Origin: Caballeronia sp. NK8
Lineage (GTDB): Bacteria; Pseudomonadota; Gammaproteobacteria; Burkholderiales; Burkholderiaceae
DNA length: 64,000 bases
Assembly: GCF_018408855.1 (NCBI RefSeq)
Contig: NZ_AP024326.1
Location: 930,001 to 994,000, forward strand
Direction: 5' to 3'
Numbering within the stretch: the first letter of the stretch is position 1; the number at the start of each line of letters is the position of its first letter. The notes beneath the pieces were generated by a model, which was not told the DNA's origin, ran no database searches, and saw only the letters and a list, made by a program, of their open reading frames with translations. The position numbers and the translations under genes are program-made. Positions 2,038 to 61,797 of this stretch are shown in pieces.

Positions 2038-2280
2038 TCAATTTCCCGGTCTTTCTGGAATGACGAAATGTTGATTAAAGAGCCGCTCGGACTCGCGCAA
2101 TCCTTCTTCGGTAAAGATCACGGACTTCGTCTTGTTGACCGGGTCTTCGATGAAACCTCGTTCGTAGAGCCGGTTCAGTACATCCCAGTCGAAACCCTTC
2201 CATGCACGGTATCGGTCATGCAGGGTCAGGTAGAGAAGTGCCAAGGCGACTTCATCAATTGCGTCGGTGTTGATGTTCAT
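2038..2280 (-). CDS. DUF6429-like protein carried by IS630 (copy 1)
   Basis: An 80-residue protein ([20 protein letters not shown]...) overlapping the transposase stop by 4 bp (ATGA), so translation is probably coupled. Proteins of this kind commonly sit after IS630-family transposases and match DUF6429; their function is unknown. It is acidic with no membrane segment. The pair is repeated unchanged in the second copy. Confidence 0.75.
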
Positions 2281-3371
2281 GATGCTTCGCCCGCGGCCTT
2301 CGTGACCCGCATACAGAACCGTTCGAGACTGGCCAGAATTTCATCAGCCGACTTGCTCCAAGAGAACGGCTGTGGATTGGCGTTATAGATCTCCAGGTAT
2401 TGACGGATCGCGTCTTCGAGTTGACGTGTCGAGCGATGCGTAGCGCGTCGAAGGTATTTTTCAGTGAGCGAGGCGAACCATCGTTCGACCTGATTAAGCC
2501 ACGACGCCGAGGTGGGCGTGAAATGAACATGGAAGCGGGGATGACGGGCGAACCAGGCTTTGATCGAGGGCGTTTTGTGCGTGCCATAGTTGTCCATCAC
2601 CAGATGCACATCCAGGTGCGACGGCACGCTGGCTTCGATGGTGCGCAGAAAACGCACGAATTCGCTGCTGCGATGGCGCCGATGTACCTCGCCGATCACC
2701 TCGCCAGTCGCGATGTCCAGCGCCGCGAACAGCGTGGTCGTGCCGTGACGCATGTAATCGTGCGTGCGTCGTTCAGCGATGCCGGGTGCCAACGGCAACA
2801 TGGGTTGCGTGCGATCGAGCGCCTGAATCTGGCTCTTTTCGTCCACGCACAACACCATGGCCTTAAGCGGCGGATCCAAGTAAAGCCCGACGATATCTCG
2901 CACCTTGTCGACGAACATCGGATCACTGGAGAGTTTGAACGTTTCCTGCCGATGCGGCTGCAAACCAAAAGCACGCCAGATCCGCGTGACCGCCGTTTGC
3001 GACAGTTTCATCTCACGAGCCATCGTGCGCGTGCTCCAGTGAGTTGCGCCGACAGGCACGCACTCAAGCGTCTTTGCAATAACCGCATCGACGCGCGCAT
3101 CATCAATCGTTCTCGGCGCGCCGGGCCGAGGCGCATCGAGCAGTCCGTCCAGACGATTCATGACGAACCGCGCCCGCCACTTCGACACCGTTTGCTGAGT
3201 GACCCGCTGTTTCGCCGCGACACTTCTGTTGTCCAGTCCATCGGCACAGGCCAACACGATGCGGGCCCGCAATGCGAGGGCCTGTGCGGTCTTGCGTCGC
3301 AATGTCAGTGCTTGCAGTTCTTTGCGCTCCGATTCGCTCAGCACCAGTTCCCCTTTGGGCCGTCCGCTCAT
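2277..3371 (-). CDS. IS630-family DDE transposase (copy 1)
   Basis: 364 residues. An N-terminal homeodomain-like HTH region ([20 protein letters not shown], about 52-71) is followed by a second HTH ([15 protein letters not shown]) and a DDE catalytic core. In the core, [10 protein letters not shown] gives the first D and [10 protein letters not shown] the second. [10 protein letters not shown] gives the final acidic residue region of IS630/Tc1-mariner enzymes. It appears intact and the element is probably active, since an identical copy lies 19 kb away. Confidence 0.93.
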
Positions 3372-18920: not shown

Positions 18921-20597
18921 TTAGAACTTGAGCACCTTCGGGATCTTCCCCGCGTAGTCGAAGCCTTCGACTGCCAGAAGCGCGTCGATGACCTCGGACT
19001 TGGACTTGCCGAAGACCTTCTTGAAGTTGTCGCCGAGCGCGGCACGAATGCCCAGCTCGTCGGCAACCACCATCATTTCGGACTTCGTGATCAACTCCAG
19101 AAACTCTTTGCAGAGCTTCCAGTGCTTGGCGAGATCGAGGTGATGGTGCTTGCACAGACGCGTGAGGTGCTGGACATCGAGGCCCTGGATCGCGGCAACC
19201 GTCACACCGGTGACGGCATGCGCGAGCTTCGCGTCGTCTGCGGCAGCCGTCGAGGCTGCAGCTTTCGACACGTCACCGGACGCGACCTGCTCCTCGGTGA
19301 GCTTTTCCCAGATGCCCGAGAGCGTCTTTTGATCGACGCAGCGCATCTGGTCGGACAGTGCGATCGCAACGAGGTATCGCTGAGCTAGCGCGGGATCGGC
19401 TCCCACCTCGCGGCGCAGGGCTTTACGCCACAACGCCACGCGATACGCTTTGATCCGGTCCGACTCAGCCACCACCGTCGCCGGCGGATTGCTTGTCGTC
19501 GATGGCGTTGACGAACCGGCTGCTGCCTTCGCTGCTGCAGGCGACGCTTTCGCGCCCGCCTTGGCTGCTTCGGGCTTCGACTGCGTCGGGGCTTTGACCG
19601 CTTGCAGTTGCGCGGCCACCTTCTTCATGTTGCAGACGGTGTCGAAACACTGGCCGCGATAGACCTTGCCGATCGAGTCAGGCAGGCCGCTCACCGCCGC
19701 ACCGTAGTTCTGGCACGCGTGACACGCCTTCGCCTGCTCTTCGCCGACGCCCTTCGGGCCGTCGACGGCGAGTTGCACGCGCGTGTGGTTGTCGCCAGCA
19801 CGTACGATGCGCACGACCGGATATTCGTCGCGCAGGCCAGTGGCCGTCGCTTCGAGCATCTTTTGGGTCTTCTCGTTGTAGCAGGTGCGGTTCGCACAGT
19901 TTCCCGTACCGATGGATTCGCCGAACATCTCACCCTGCGTGGACGAGTTGTGCGGGCATCCAGCGCAGTCGGCCTTGTCGAAGATCGCGGCTGCCAACGA
20001 ACAGGCGACCTGTTCGATGGTTTTCTTGACCTCCGCCACCGCCTTACCCTCCTTGATGATCACCGGCAGCAGCTTGTCCTGCGTCTCCTTGGGGACCGCA
20101 GCGAGCAGCTCGGCGTGACCGAGGAGGATCTGGCGCGTGCTGAGCGCATCGAGCACAGGCGTGCTGCAGTTCGTCAGCGCGAGACGCTTATCCAACGTCG
20201 CACGCGACCAGCCGAAGATGCGCGCGACTTCGTCGCGATCGCCTTTGCACAGCCCGACTTGCTCGGCCGCGGCGATCGCTTCTTCAGCGGGTGACATGTC
20301 GGCTCGCTGGATGTTCTCGATGATGGCGAGTTGCTTCGCTTCGACCTCATCGATGTCTCGAACGACGACCGGGATTTCATAGTCTTCGCCGTGCGCCGCG
20401 AGCGCCGCCTTGTATCTGCGGCCACCAGCGACGAGGCTGAAGCCGCCGTCAGCGAGCGTGCGCACGATGACAGGCTGAATGACGCCCTTTTCGCGAACAG
20501 ACGCGGTCAGCTCTTCCATCTCCGCCGCATCGAAGTACTTGCGGGGATTGACGCTGACCTGAATTTGCTTGAGGGCGAGAGTAGGTTGCTGTTGCAT
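18921..20597 (-). CDS. parB: PRTRC ParB-family partition protein
   Basis: 558 residues from MQQQPTLALKQIQVSVNPRK (SD CAGGAG, 8 nt). The ParB/Srx N-terminal domain includes LVAGGRRYKAALAA (about 55-68) and ENIQRADMSPAEEAIAA (about 93-109). An HTH follows at RIFGWSRATLDKRLALTN (about 127-144). Then comes a cysteine-rich region (CADCAGCPH, CANRTCYN, CHACQNYG, CFDTVCNM), probably zinc binding and typical of the PRTRC subfamily, an Ala/Pro/Ser-rich linker and a helical C-terminus. It probably loads on a centromere and acts in plasmid maintenance. Headed by a structured leader and the shared promoter. Confidence 0.92.
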   Translation of the reverse strand: MQQQPTLALKQIQVSVNPRKYFDAAEMEELTASVREKGVIQPVIVRTLADGGFSLVAGGRRYKAALAAHGEDYEIPVVVRDIDEVEAKQLAIIENIQRADMSPAEEAIAAAEQVGLCKGDRDEVARIFGWSRATLDKRLALTNCSTPVLDALSTRQILLGHAELLAAVPKETQDKLLPVIIKEGKAVAEVKKTIEQVACSLAAAIFDKADCAGCPHNSSTQGEMFGESIGTGNCANRTCYNEKTQKMLEATATGLRDEYPVVRIVRAGDNHTRVQLAVDGPKGVGEEQAKACHACQNYGAAVSGLPDSIGKVYRGQCFDTVCNMKKVAAQLQAVKAPTQSKPEAAKAGAKASPAAAKAAAGSSTPSTTSNPPATVVAESDRIKAYRVALWRKALRREVGADPALAQRYLVAIALSDQMRCVDQKTLSGIWEKLTEEQVASGDVSKAAASTAAADDAKLAHAVTGVTVAAIQGLDVQHLTRLCKHHHLDLAKHWKLCKEFLELITKSEMMVVADELGIRAALGDNFKKVFGKSKSEVIDALLAVEGFDYAGKIPKVLKF

Positions 20598-20613
20598 GGC
20601 AGGGCTCCTGAGA

Positions 20614-20650
20614 GGGAACCTGCCCCCTTTGGGAGTGGTTCCCAAAGGGT
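20614..20650 (-). promoter_or_regulatory. Structured 5' leader of parB (copy 2)
   Basis: Minus-strand RNA: stem CCCTTTGGG / CCCAAAGGG with loop AACCACT, then GGCAGGTTCCC, whose GGTT is complementary to AACC of the loop. The SD AGGAG follows. Upstream lies a perfect small hairpin CTGACTTTCGTCAG (20664-20677). Same layout as the leaders at 14541, 41467 and 57442. Confidence 0.55.
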
Positions 20651-20685
20651 TGAACAACGTGGGCTGACGAAAGTCAGCGCGGGGT

Positions 20686-20755
20686 CGATGCGTCTATGAC
20701 GCGGGTGATAGAGCAAAGATAGCGGGTTATTTCGCGAGCTTGCCCCGCGAAAGCT
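20686..20755 (-). promoter_or_regulatory. Shared backbone promoter, parB copy
   Basis: On the minus strand: box GCTTTCGCG (20754-20746), then 40 bp ending TTGCTCTATCA, then CCCGCG (20705-20700) opening the hairpin GCGTC-ATA-GACGC and CATCGACC. Two other operons (41547-41617 and 58032-58103) match in box, spacing and hairpin. No good -35 is visible, consistent with an activator-dependent promoter. Confidence 0.55.
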
Positions 20756-21257
20756 CACGAATTTATGTCGTCTTTCATAGCCAGGCGGGGCGCGGCTCAT
20801 CTCGTCCGCGTCCAACGGCTTGCCGCGCGTCCACGCGAGGCGATGTACCGCGACGATGTCCGCCGCGAGCCGCTCTGAATCGGCCGCAGATAACGCGAGG
20901 CCGACTGACCGAACGTCGTCTGCACCGACCGCGACCTTAAAGAATAGTGTGACGTCTCGATACCCGGGCGCGTCCAGCTTGTTTTCGTACTGACACGAAT
21001 GCACGAGGCCGTCGTCCGGCAGCGGCGTGTGCGCCGGCTCATCAGCCAGCCCCCATCGTCTGATCATCGCCAGCCAGCGGGCTTCTCCATTAGGAAAGTA
21101 ACGATGCACTTCCGTCGCGTGCCGACTGTCCAGCCGCAGCAACTGCATGCAGTGCTCCAGCAAATCATCGTCGAGCCGTCGAAAGTCCCAGAGGTTGAAT
21201 GGGAAGTCGTCGCCATTGTAGAGGCCTGCTAGTGTCGTGAGTTAGAAGTTCGTTGAA

Positions 21258-21500
21258 TCAATTTCCCGGTCTTTCTGGAATGACGAAATGTTGATTAAAG
21301 AGCCGCTCGGACTCGCGCAATCCTTCTTCGGTAAAGATCACGGACTTCGTCTTGTTGACCGGGTCTTCGATGAAACCTCGTTCGTAGAGCCGGTTCAGTA
21401 CATCCCAGTCGAAACCCTTCCATGCACGGTATCGGTCATGCAGGGTCAGGTAGAGAAGTGCCAAGGCGACTTCATCAATTGCGTCGGTGTTGATGTTCAT
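21258..21500 (-). CDS. DUF6429-like protein carried by IS630 (copy 2)
   Basis: 80 residues, identical to the protein encoded at 2038-2280, overlapping the transposase gene by 4 bp. Function unknown; it travels with this IS630 type. Confidence 0.75.
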
Positions 21501-22591
21501 GATGCTTCGCCCGCGGCCTTCGTGACCCGCATACAGAACCGTTCGAGACTGGCCAGAATTTCATCAGCCGACTTGCTCCAAGAGAACGGCTGTGGATTGG
21601 CGTTATAGATCTCCAGGTATTGACGGATCGCGTCTTCGAGTTGACGTGTCGAGCGATGCGTAGCGCGTCGAAGGTATTTTTCAGTGAGCGAGGCGAACCA
21701 TCGTTCGACCTGATTAAGCCACGACGCCGAGGTGGGCGTGAAATGAACATGGAAGCGGGGATGACGGGCGAACCAGGCTTTGATCGAGGGCGTTTTGTGC
21801 GTGCCATAGTTGTCCATCACCAGATGCACATCCAGGTGCGACGGCACGCTGGCTTCGATGGTGCGCAGAAAACGCACGAATTCGCTGCTGCGATGGCGCC
21901 GATGTACCTCGCCGATCACCTCGCCAGTCGCGATGTCCAGCGCCGCGAACAGCGTGGTCGTGCCGTGACGCATGTAATCGTGCGTGCGTCGTTCAGCGAT
22001 GCCGGGTGCCAACGGCAACATGGGTTGCGTGCGATCGAGCGCCTGAATCTGGCTCTTTTCGTCCACGCACAACACCATGGCCTTAAGCGGCGGATCCAAG
22101 TAAAGCCCGACGATATCTCGCACCTTGTCGACGAACATCGGATCACTGGAGAGTTTGAACGTTTCCTGCCGATGCGGCTGCAAACCAAAAGCACGCCAGA
22201 TCCGCGTGACCGCCGTTTGCGACAGTTTCATCTCACGAGCCATCGTGCGCGTGCTCCAGTGAGTTGCGCCGACAGGCACGCACTCAAGCGTCTTTGCAAT
22301 AACCGCATCGACGCGCGCATCATCAATCGTTCTCGGCGCGCCGGGCCGAGGCGCATCGAGCAGTCCGTCCAGACGATTCATGACGAACCGCGCCCGCCAC
22401 TTCGACACCGTTTGCTGAGTGACCCGCTGTTTCGCCGCGACACTTCTGTTGTCCAGTCCATCGGCACAGGCCAACACGATGCGGGCCCGCAATGCGAGGG
22501 CCTGTGCGGTCTTGCGTCGCAATGTCAGTGCTTGCAGTTCTTTGCGCTCCGATTCGCTCAGCACCAGTTCCCCTTTGGGCCGTCCGCTCAT
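21497..22591 (-). CDS. IS630-family DDE transposase (copy 2)
   Basis: 364 residues identical to the protein at 2277-3371, with the same HTH pair and DDE motifs ([30 protein letters not shown]). Intact. The sequence identity of the two copies points to recent transposition. Confidence 0.93.
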
Positions 22592-41546: not shown

Positions 41547-41617
41547 GTCGATGCGCTAGAAGCGCGGGTGATAGTGCAACAGTACATGCACGAGGTTCCG
41601 CCGCTGACACGAAAGGC
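41547..41617 (-). promoter_or_regulatory. Shared backbone promoter, copy before the 41442 gene
   Basis: Minus strand: box GCCTTTCGTG (41617-41608), then 39 bp ending TTGCACTATCA, then CCCGCG (41568-41563) and the hairpin GCGC-TTCTA-GCGC with CATCGAC. The stem bases differ from the parB copy but still pair. An additional inverted repeat CGAAAGGC/GCCTTTCG (41610-41639) overlaps the box. Confidence 0.55.
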
Positions 41618-41649
41618 GATCTTTTCATGGTGCCTTTCGTGCTCAGACC

Positions 41650-41684
41650 TTATCCACAGTTTCTGTGGCTAACCTTGGGGATAA
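41650..41684. promoter_or_regulatory. Cluster of DnaA-box-like sequences
   Basis: TTATCCACA (41650-41658) is a perfect DnaA box. TGTGGCTAA and TGGGGATAA follow within 30 bp on the other strand, each one mismatch from TGTGGATAA. The region lies between divergent operons and beside the shared promoter. Three boxes could mark a replication origin or DnaA-linked control; no iterons or Rep gene were recognised nearby. Confidence 0.45.
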
Positions 41685-41860
41685 CCTCAGCCGCCTCCCG
41701 ATGTTTGCGATACATCTACGGTTGGCGGAAAACGCGCAAGCGCGCGCATCCACCTCAAAAGGCGCAACGATTTCGGTCCCTTTCGCCGGTCCGCCGCTGG
41801 CCTGCTGAGATCAGAATTTCGAGATGCACGCGCGTGCGTGCAATCCCTTCGAGCACGTCC

Positions 41861-49131: not shown

Positions 49132-49180
49132 TGGTGATTAGAAGAATACCGGCACCGTGACCATGTAAAGAGTTAAAAGC
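49111..49180 (-). promoter_or_regulatory. Degenerate copy of the shared backbone promoter
   Basis: Plus strand GTCGATGCGCATGCGCGCGG then TTGGTGATTAG resembles the CATCGAC hairpin plus CTATCACC initiation region of the other three copies. A GCTTTT box (49180-49175) occurs at roughly the same distance. The match is weaker and has a small insertion. Confidence 0.35.
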
Positions 49181-49336
49181 TGCCTAAATGTTGCGAGCTT
49201 TTGCTTCCTTGACATTGCGCGCCGATCTGTAGAGTTGGACAGGCGTAACGGGGACTCTTCCACCCGATTTCGTCTTGATAAGTGACAGATTGAGGCGCTT
49301 CAGATCGTCGATTCGCCTTCTCACCGTTCATGGAGA

Positions 49337-58031: not shown

Positions 58032-58103
58032 GGGTCGATGCGTCGGTGACGCGGGGATAACAGGCAATTTACGCGTGGGCCGCGAGCGCGTGCGCGCGAA
58101 AGC
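58032..58103 (-). promoter_or_regulatory. Shared backbone promoter, copy before the 57832 gene
   Basis: Minus strand: box GCTTTCGCG (58103-58095), 39 bp ending TTGCCTGTTATC, then CCCGCG (58055-58050), hairpin GCGTC-ACC-GACGC and CATCGACC. The sequence around the box (AATT...GAGCTTTCGCG) also matches the parB copy. Confidence 0.55.
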
Positions 58104-58218
58104 TCCCAATTTCACACCGCCTTTCGATTTTCGGCTTGGAACGTGGCAGCGCCGCGGTGCTCACTTGACTTCCATTTGCCCTTGGCATGCTAGTTACATG
58201 CTCAACAGGAGGCAGCGA

Positions 58219-58935: not shown

Positions 58936-59297
58936 TAATCGCTTCCACGTCAGAGCTCAGAAGCTGCTTAAGTGTTTCATTAACGAACCGTTAAACGTTT
59001 GGATAGGTGGACAAAAACGCGACCTTTCACTCGCGGCAGGCGAAAGACGGGGTAAAAACGGCGTCTTTCGGTGCGAGACGTGCTCGGGACCGCCGTTACG
59101 ATCCCTTACATCTGTGAGAAAGAACGTCCTCAGACGGCAAAAGGTTGCACGGGATGAGAACTGCCGCTGTGGCGAGTGAATGCGTTCACCCGCGGGTGCG
59201 GCTAGTTGTGTACCGACACCATTTTCTATCCGCGAGCGAAGTCCTCGCGGGGTTTGAACGCAGCGCGCCGGGGCGCTGCAAAATCTGGAGAGAAGTT
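58936..59297 (+). promoter_or_regulatory. Control region upstream of the coiled-coil/FlhDC-like operon
   Basis: About 360 bp with no gene. It contains the inverted repeat CGAAAGACG (59041-59049) and CGTCTTTCG (59062-59070), similar to the CTTTCG box of the shared promoter, and TACGAT (59097-59102) as a possible -10. Autoregulation by the downstream activator is an attractive but untested idea. Confidence 0.45.
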
Positions 59298-60539
59298 ATG
59301 TCCTCAAGTAGTGACGATTCTAAGAAGAACCTGCAATTGCGAAAAACGGAACTTCACGATCCGTTGGACGACATTTTTGGCCCAGTTTCGGCCGGCGGTG
59401 CCGAACGCTCGAAGATCGAAACGGTTGCCCGGCAGCTTTTCGGAGACGGCCCCGAGTTCACCGATCTCATCGCTCAGCTCGTCGAGAACATGGTAACGAT
59501 CGCTGAGGCGAGAGCGCGAGTTTCAACCGACCTTAAAACGATAGGCGGCCTGTTGATCAACTCCATGCACCTGATCAAAAACGCGCTGCTCACGACGTCG
59601 GGCAACAAGACAACTGCCCTGCGACGGGCCGCGACGTTGGGATATTCATTCTTCGACTTGGCTCTCGGCGTGAAGATGCCGGCAGCACGCAAGTACATGC
59701 GTTGCTATGAGGCGTTCCTCGACAACACCGAGGCTATCCGGGTATTCAACGTCGGCGAACTGGACATCCTCGCTGCCGACCACGTGACCGACGAACAGGT
59801 TGCGGCCATTCTCGCGGCGAAGCAGGCGAACGAGCATATGACCCGCGAAGACGTTCGCAAAATGCTGGCGACGCTGCAGAAGCAGGAAGAGGCTCTCGCT
59901 GATCGCAAAGTGGAGATAGACAACTACGAGGCCCTGCTCGAGGACAGCAAAACCGCTCAGCGGGTCGCGGAGGACGAAGCGAACCGGCTTCAGCAACAGC
60001 TCGACGCCACTGCGAAACTGATCGCCGAAAAAGAGGCCCAGCTACAGCGCATGGACAGCTATTACACCGGTCGGCAGGCGGGCCTAGCCAACCTTGAAAA
60101 GGACCTTGCGGACAAAGACAAGGAAATTGCAAGACTGAACGAGGAAAGAAACGCGCTGCTCAACCGGAAGCCGGAAGTCCAGATCAAGGAAGTTGAGACG
60201 ACTCCCGCTGGATATAAGAGCATTTCCGAATCACTGGAAAAGCGCAACGCTGAACTCAAACAGCTAGAAGAGCAGCTGGTCGAGAGGCGCGCCGAGTTGG
60301 AACGACTTGAGGCCGACAGGAAAAAAGAGGCCGGCGCCATTGAAGCTGCTAACCGCGTTCAAGCAGCGATGCAAGAAGCGCTATCCGCATTTGAGCAATT
60401 CGCGGGCAAGCTCACGCTGGCTCAGGTAGCAGTTCAAGCTTCCGATGGGCTTGGGCAGCATGAACCGTTGGTCCAAACGCTGGCCGCAATGATGCGCAAG
60501 CACCTCATCGAGATTGAGACGGGTTTGCGAAAGCTGTAA
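59298..60539 (+). CDS. Coiled-coil DNA-binding-like protein
   Basis: 413 residues from ATG 59298 (GGAGAG 5 nt upstream). N-terminal 170 residues are globular, including PAARKYMRCYEAFLDNTEAI and LDILAADHVTDEQVAAILAA, which recall the HTH-like region of DUF3102/ParB-type proteins. Then a long coiled coil (about 195-370, for example EEALADRKVEIDNYEALLED, KQLEEQLVERRAELERLEAD). Similar in design to KfrA-type plasmid proteins. Upstream of the FlhDC-like gene. Confidence 0.65.
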   Translation: MSSSSDDSKKNLQLRKTELHDPLDDIFGPVSAGGAERSKIETVARQLFGDGPEFTDLIAQLVENMVTIAEARARVSTDLKTIGGLLINSMHLIKNALLTTSGNKTTALRRAATLGYSFFDLALGVKMPAARKYMRCYEAFLDNTEAIRVFNVGELDILAADHVTDEQVAAILAAKQANEHMTREDVRKMLATLQKQEEALADRKVEIDNYEALLEDSKTAQRVAEDEANRLQQQLDATAKLIAEKEAQLQRMDSYYTGRQAGLANLEKDLADKDKEIARLNEERNALLNRKPEVQIKEVETTPAGYKSISESLEKRNAELKQLEEQLVERRAELERLEADRKKEAGAIEAANRVQAAMQEALSAFEQFAGKLTLAQVAVQASDGLGQHEPLVQTLAAMMRKHLIEIETGLRKL

Positions 60540-60606: not shown

Positions 60607-61797
60607 ATGTCGACCACCACGCTTGATGCCGTTGAGACCAACATTGCCCTTCGGCAGTATCTCGCTGAGAAAATACAAAGGACCAACTTTTCGCTGACGG
60701 CGGTTATCCATAAGATACTCGCGCGGTACAGCAGCGCCGAAGCATTCTTTGGCGTCTCGTTTGACAACATGGAAACGTTCAAGGCGCACGCCGTACCGAT
60801 GGCCAAGCTTATGAACATGCCGTTCCTGGCGCTGTCGCCGGCGCTGCAGGATCCTCGCGATTGGGCGACCTTTGTCGACGGGATAATGTTTTCGACAGCA
60901 GTGTCGAAGCTTTCTTCATCGATGCCTTTCGTCGACGACGTGACGGCGCGCGATATTTTCCATTACAACTGCGCCTATGTCTCGCTGCTCAAAGACGTGC
61001 TGCACCAGAGTGTGCTCGCAGCGCCGCTCCTAGGTATCTCGTTCGAGTTAGCCGAATACCTGATGGGCTTGCCAATCGGACGGCTGGAAGCAGCAATCGG
61101 CGGAATCCGCTTCCCACTGTTTAGATGGCGGTTCGACGACGAGCGCTTCTGGCGACAATACGGCGCTGACTCGCTTACCGAAGAGGCCGTCGCTCACTAT
61201 GTCATGCGCACCTCGAACCTCAAGCCGAGTGGACTACCTTTCAAGAATCTCTGGTCCGACCTGCGGCTCGACCGCGCTAGACGCGAGATCTACGCGAGAT
61301 TGTTGATGACCCAGGGTTGTCGCGCTTCCACCGCCACAAACCTGTTTAGCGTGACTTCGGCGGTCACTCGAAATACTTATCGAGAGATCCACGGCGTCAG
61401 CTCGCCATGCGGAAATAGTGCAAGCTCGTTGACGTGGTACGTCGAGCGTCCCACGCATCGACTCCAAGCAACCATGCTCGTATGGCTCTATCGATGTGCT
61501 CTCAAAAACGGAGCGAACATTCCGGAAGCGCTGATTGCCTCCAACGACGTTCTCGACAAGATGTTCGGTAGTCGGCTCGCCGTTTCTGCTGACCGCGCGA
61601 ACCATCTCACCCGCTCTATGGCGATCGATTCGAGGTTGAATGTCGCACCGTGCAGAACTTGCGCGACGGAATACATCTTGGCGAACGACGAAGGGAAGAT
61701 CGAATTGGCGAAGGACTTCGTTTGTCCCGGTTGCACTGGCGATCTCAAGCCGCGCCTGACCGAGCCTAAGCGCAAAGGTCGCAAGGCCAAGAAATAG
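60607..61797 (+). CDS. FlhD-FlhC-like fusion transcription activator
   Basis: 396 residues. Residues about 117-186 (NCAYVSLLKDVLHQSVLAAP, LLGISFELAEYLMGLPIGRL, then FRWRFDDERFW) follow the FlhD pattern. Residues about 10-95 look like a second, more diverged FlhD-like repeat. Residues 220-380 follow FlhC: RARREIYARLLMTQGCRAST, TRNTYREIHGVSSP, and a C349-x2-C352 ... C373-x2-C376 zinc site (CRTC...CPGC). Relatives SetCD/AcaCD activate conjugation genes of SXT and IncC elements. Here D and C are one chain, so it is a probable master activator. Confidence 0.75.
   Translation: MSTTTLDAVETNIALRQYLAEKIQRTNFSLTAVIHKILARYSSAEAFFGVSFDNMETFKAHAVPMAKLMNMPFLALSPALQDPRDWATFVDGIMFSTAVSKLSSSMPFVDDVTARDIFHYNCAYVSLLKDVLHQSVLAAPLLGISFELAEYLMGLPIGRLEAAIGGIRFPLFRWRFDDERFWRQYGADSLTEEAVAHYVMRTSNLKPSGLPFKNLWSDLRLDRARREIYARLLMTQGCRASTATNLFSVTSAVTRNTYREIHGVSSPCGNSASSLTWYVERPTHRLQATMLVWLYRCALKNGANIPEALIASNDVLDKMFGSRLAVSADRANHLTRSMAIDSRLNVAPCRTCATEYILANDEGKIELAKDFVCPGCTGDLKPRLTEPKRKGRKAKK

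Follow-up and report, generated by a model that had tools for sequence, protein, structure and literature searches.

A plasmid gene of Caballeronia sp. NK8 encodes, in a single reading frame, two FlhD-like repeats followed by an FlhC part. Its product, for which we coin the name FlhDDC, is likely to be a single-chain FlhDC-type activator that acts on its own operon and on plasmid transfer and maintenance genes through the inverted repeat CGAAAG-N18-CTTTCG. Computation gave the order of the domains and how well it is conserved, the dyad with the genes lying downstream, and the constant distance that separates dyad and -10-like hexamer; dimerisation, binding and activation are what we infer. The gene lies in the window, that is, the whole 64,000-nucleotide stretch analysed, on replicon C5 (1.015 Mb) of a 9.2 Mb genome in seven contigs (Table 1).

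Domain order, conservation and distribution of the fused protein

The preliminary description had proposed that one or two FlhD repeats and an FlhC part are joined in one chain, and this architecture was borne out: the reading frame is present from ATG to stop, and D and C are not two separate subunit proteins but one open reading frame, in the window and in relatives. The FlhC part, located earlier at about residues 220-380, matches its family (PF05280) in both sequence and fold, with E-values of 2.2e-5 in Pfam (24.7 bits, the cut-off being 27) and 5.5e-6 in NCBIfam. A family profile, built from the window protein and 59 relatives, places it with the solved FlhC chains of C. necator (8j56_C, 3e-8) and E. 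coli (2avu_E, 2.5e-6). The four putative zinc-binding cysteines are there, and they are invariant, along with 26 other columns, in 84 of 84 aligned sequences. The FlhD pattern recognised at about residues 117-186 was recovered by the same profile as a match of residues 112-186 to the FlhD of C. necator (8j56_A, 2.7e-4), the single sequence giving a weak 0.11, and in this second repeat (D2) sequence and fold both match FlhD (PF05247). Used alone, the fused sequence retrieved nothing relevant among solved chains with phmmer and no PHROGs match up to E 0.1.

The suggestion that the first 95 or so residues are a degenerate FlhD repeat finds its support in the predicted fold, the sequence agreeing weakly. 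Structure prediction gives this repeat (D1) a fold that matches FlhD (PF05247), with low confidence when D1 is modelled alone (pLDDT 66.6). A Foldseek search with D1 alone returned FlhD chains in four of ten rows, all E-values being above 1, and the two FlhD rows that extend beyond residue 77 superpose loosely (rmsd 4.2 and 6.1). By profile, D1 scores 18.1 against D2, where 40 column shuffles reach at most 14.2, and 12.6 against FlhD, which falls short of significance (shuffles up to 18.4).

We found 87 relatives, 80 of them at least 380 aa long; where the sources give a name or an organism, they are FlhC-type regulators or hypothetical proteins of Burkholderiaceae. The fused gene occurs in 46 plasmid records, from Cupriavidus (18), Burkholderia (15), Paraburkholderia (9), Caballeronia (2) and Robbsia (2). 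With a presence cut-off of our own choice (E under 1e-100) it is found in 41 of 299 Burkholderiaceae genomes, and among 369 genomes sampled across the class a match at 1e-20 appears only in the source genome. There, C7 (0.435 Mb) carries another fused gene with 85% identity, and four ordinary flhDC pairs accompany the fused genes, two of which share these replicons (C5 and C7) with them. Ordinary but divergent pairs lie at C5:459758-460572 and C7:317000-317814, and identical exact dyads are found at C5:491662 and C7:331416, 14-32 kb from those replicons' ordinary pairs. On plasmid p3 a separate flhDC pair adjoins an imuA-like cassette.

The gene ending 67 bases upstream of flhDDC, which probably shares one operon with it, encodes a long coiled-coil protein. 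It is present in 41 of the 41 genomes with flhDDC, and as a fragment in two more. Its N-terminal 170 residues are conserved and gave no convincing family match. The neighbourhoods on p3, pATCC31433 and pHG1 are alike, comprising PRTRC-D, a primase, ssb, the coiled-coil partner, flhDDC, a CAP-domain protein, VirB genes and those of a type IVb pilus; the annotations of two of these three plasmids also include a nuclease-related gene. One ORF pair also occurs twice in the window, within identical stretches of 1334 bases (2038-3371 and 21258-22591) that are probably an insertion element, the right copy lying inside a split homologue of the p3 gene LDZ27_RS27265.

Table 1. Features of the window, numbered from its first letter
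Feature	Position	Strand	Remarks
Coiled-coil partner gene	59298..60539	+	413 aa; start judged from reading frame and relatives
flhDDC (FlhD-FlhD-FlhC)	60607..61797	+	ATG to stop, 396 aa; name coined here
D1, first FlhD-like repeat	60646..60930	+	About residues 14-108; predicted fold, weak sequence support
D2, second FlhD repeat	60931..61206	+	About residues 109-200; profile match
FlhC part	61264..61743	+	About residues 220-379; Cys349, 352, 373, 376
Dyad CGAAAG-N18-CTTTCG	59041..59070	+	Precedes coiled-coil/flhDDC operon
-10-like TACGAT	59097..59102	+	Offset 26 from 59041 dyad
Dyad	58097..58126	-	Leftward to ssb operon (about 57.8-54.3 kb)
-10-like TAAATT	58066..58071	-	Offset 25 from 58097 dyad
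Dyad	41610..41639	-	Leftward to SNF2-helicase/methyltransferase operon (41454-37465)
-10-like TACTGT	41579..41584	-	Offset 25 from 41610 dyad
Dyad (1 mismatch)	20748..20777	-	Leftward to PRTRC ParB operon (ParB ORF 18921-20657)
-10-like TATCTT	20716..20721	-	Offset 26 from 20748 dyad
Dyad, weaker half-sites	49174..49203	.	Between divergent promoters; rightward to PRTRC-D actin-like gene 49426
-10-like hexamer of 49174 dyad	49230..49235	+	
-10-like hexamer of 49174 dyad	49143..49148	-	

The dyad and its promoters

The fused protein had also been put forward as a candidate activator of shared promoters through sites of the form GCYTTTCGYG. The word as written did not stand: as a single motif it occurs in the window about as often as chance predicts (2 exact copies against 1.93 expected, 33 against 34.5 when one mismatch is allowed). 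What carries meaning is the pairing of its half-sites in the dyad CGAAAG-N18-CTTTCG, and the idea of a candidate activator survives with it, the dyad standing at activator distance and ahead of conjugation genes as well. In 51 related loci, the pair CGAAAGRC/GYCTTTCG, with at most two mismatches, gave 37 matches at a spacing of 14 and one to seven at each of 17 other spacings. Likewise, 50 regions upstream of the coiled-coil/flhDDC operon contain the spacing of 18 in 29 cases with at most one mismatch and in 37 with at most two (the dyad is absent at this level from the other 13), against 0-2 and 1-12, respectively, for the other 20 spacings.

The dyad keeps company with the gene. All six exact dyads of the source genome lie on C5 (four) and C7 (two), the gene-bearing replicons, which total 1.45 Mb; the remaining five contigs (7.8 Mb) have none, and the reversed-pattern control gives none in the genome. 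Such a placement would arise at random with a chance of about 1.5e-5, a figure to be read with the six sites not being fully independent, because two of them are identical copies that lie one on each replicon. At least one exact dyad is found in 36 of the 41 genomes with flhDDC (93 sites, reversed control 25), the other five having none, and in 74 of the 258 without it, where 90 sites stand against 117 in the reversed control and there is therefore no excess over chance. Two or more are present in 25/41 genomes with the gene versus 13/258 without. Three complete plasmids have 7, 5 and 9 dyads at no more than one mismatch, with reversed controls of 0, 1 and 1.

The distance from dyad to promoter is fixed. 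Taking 89 dyads with at most one mismatch, removing near-identical flanks and counting both directions, we obtained 121 flanks, and TAnnnT stands at offset 25 in 34 and at offset 26 in 25 of them (59/121), with at most two at any other offset. Just 17 of these 59 have a -35 match of at least 4/6. The offset-25 set is hardly above chance (mean match 2.74 versus 2.57 in shuffles; at least 4/6 in 6/34), and the -35 signal of the offset-26 set (3.6 versus 2.67; 11/25) is owed mostly to the PRTRC-D promoter that reads rightward and has TTGACTT.

A weight matrix trained without the source genome found sites in the window at 58097, 20748, 49174 (in both directions), 59041, 41610 and 41756, and none in shuffled sequence. 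The last of these, a second dyad (41756-41785) next to that at 41610, has no -10-like hexamer at the expected distance. Beside the 41610 dyad lies TTATCCACA (41650-41658), which we take to be a DnaA-box-like word. A third half-site, CTTTC(G/A), is found 11 bases before the dyad of the flhDDC operon (59024-59070) and in close relatives (L036, L042-L044), and the operator there may therefore be longer. At or near PRTRC-D, the symmetric dyad at 49174 appears to be shared by two divergent promoters, as does a dyad near 0.4-1.4 kb in the related loci L061, L063, L070, L072, L073 and L081.

Conjugation genes are preceded by the dyad too. The source genome gave no match to family PF19044, and its conjugation genes were located instead by protein comparison, the identities on C5 and C7 coming from tblastn with annotated plasmid proteins; "VirB11" is our label for genes annotated as T2SS/T4P/T4SS family ATPases. 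The promoter of the VirB11-TraI-TraD operon has a dyad in five of the five plasmids examined, with one mismatch on C5, none on C7, three on p3, none on pATCC31433 and two on pHG1, and in all five the hexamer at offset 25 or 26 is AACAAT, not TAnnnT. The C5 operon, ATPase (906519) to TraD (897287), has its dyad at 906584-906613; on pATCC31433 an exact dyad lies 37 bases upstream of the corresponding ATPase gene, and on pHG1 the space that separates the VirB11-TraI-TraD operon from the VirB8-pilus operon is filled by dyads at 372809, 372963 (one mismatch) and 373058 (two). For the VirB8/type IVb pilus operon, C5, C7 and p3 show at best a dyad with three mismatches, and pATCC31433 one with two mismatches and no aligned -10.

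The binder of the dyad

We favour the fused protein as the binder on account of the geometry of the sites, of its family, in which FlhC contacts DNA, and of the analogy with AcaCD. The main rival, which we hold to be unlikely, is that the dyad serves as operator for the coiled-coil partner, the fused protein being a co-regulator or active elsewhere. The best-conserved dyad is followed first by the partner gene, which is found wherever flhDDC is, so co-occurrence cannot tell which of the two binds. We liken it, presumptively, to KfrA-like or ParB-like plasmid DNA-binding proteins, for which autoregulation is known. However, a fixed distance from dyad to -10, mostly without a -35, fits an activator better than a repressor. 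Neither family nor solved-structure searches assigned the partner a DNA-binding domain, which is absence of evidence only, and no match to the KfrA family was found, the likeness being that of long coiled-coil plasmid proteins.

Much less probable is that the dyad belongs to another FlhDC, plasmid-borne or chromosomal, with the fused protein as a decoy or antagonist: the ordinary pairs of the source genome and the pair on p3 would supply such a regulator, but the other five contigs hold none of the six exact dyads, and pHG1 and pATCC31433, two of the three complete plasmids searched for a separate FlhD, have dyads and no such FlhD. That the protein is a worn or non-binding relic, kept only structurally, is the least credible reading, since internal stops (G015, G294) and a split match (G321) among the 41 genomes and fragments at two of 48 GTDB loci (L082, L083) are set against 46 loci where the match spans nearly the whole chain and against the invariant cysteines and columns.

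If the fused protein is the activator, two D-D-C chains would probably pair into a D4C2-like ring, whose FlhC parts, with their predicted zinc sites, would hold the inverted repeat. The inner edge of the dyad would then sit just upstream of the would-be -35 contact of RNA polymerase, and the protein could bring polymerase to promoters most of which have no -35. In this way it would switch on its own operon, VirB11-VirB4-TraI-TraD, the PRTRC genes, the ssb operon and the helicase/methyltransferase operon, and it may be the trigger of plasmid transfer.

Relation to known FlhDC-type regulators

The folds of both subunits, the four-cysteine site and the order of D before C are shared by the fused protein and FlhD4C2 (E. 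coli 2AVU; Cupriavidus necator 8J56), but FlhD4C2 is made of two proteins, whereas here there is one chain with two D repeats, on plasmids. An inverted-repeat site is common to both, the one here being a candidate dyad read from sequence; the FlhDC site consists of two repeats of 17 or 18 bp, separated by a spacer of 10 or 11 bp (PMC3510510), from which CGAAAG-N18-CTTTCG differs. Similar in role, going by their description, would be AcaCD of IncC plasmids and SetCD of SXT/R391, FlhC/FlhD-related conjugation activators encoded by the elements themselves (PMC4207636; PMC4344509). They too differ in being two separate subunits; the candidate sites ahead of the VirB11-TraI-TraD operon may be a counterpart of theirs. 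The AcaCD study describes a class 2 activator profile for its sites and a motif unrelated to that of FlhDC (PMC4207636). FlhDC-type conjugation activators are known as two-subunit complexes, and no single-chain D-D-C form stands among the papers listed. Neither an FlhD-FlhC fusion nor such a regulator on these plasmids appears among the titles and abstracts listed, a set outside which most subscription journals lie.

We lean, with somewhat less assurance than for the activator itself, towards the fused chain being the covalent half of an FlhD4C2 ring, two identical chains rebuilding the hexamer at a fixed 2:1 ratio, and towards a master activator encoded by one gene, which would tie its own synthesis to conjugation, PRTRC and the handling of single-stranded DNA across a class of Burkholderiaceae megaplasmids that includes pHG1 of Cupriavidus necator. 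If this is true, a natural single-chain FlhDC would be useful for asking how the ring holds DNA, because one polypeptide fixes the stoichiometry. The PRTRC genes, whose role is to our knowledge regarded as unclear, would gain a regulatory link to conjugation. And a large, little-studied group of megaplasmids, recorded from Caballeronia, Paraburkholderia, Burkholderia, Cupriavidus and Robbsia, would have the control of its transfer linked to a gene with a name and to a DNA code that can be read.
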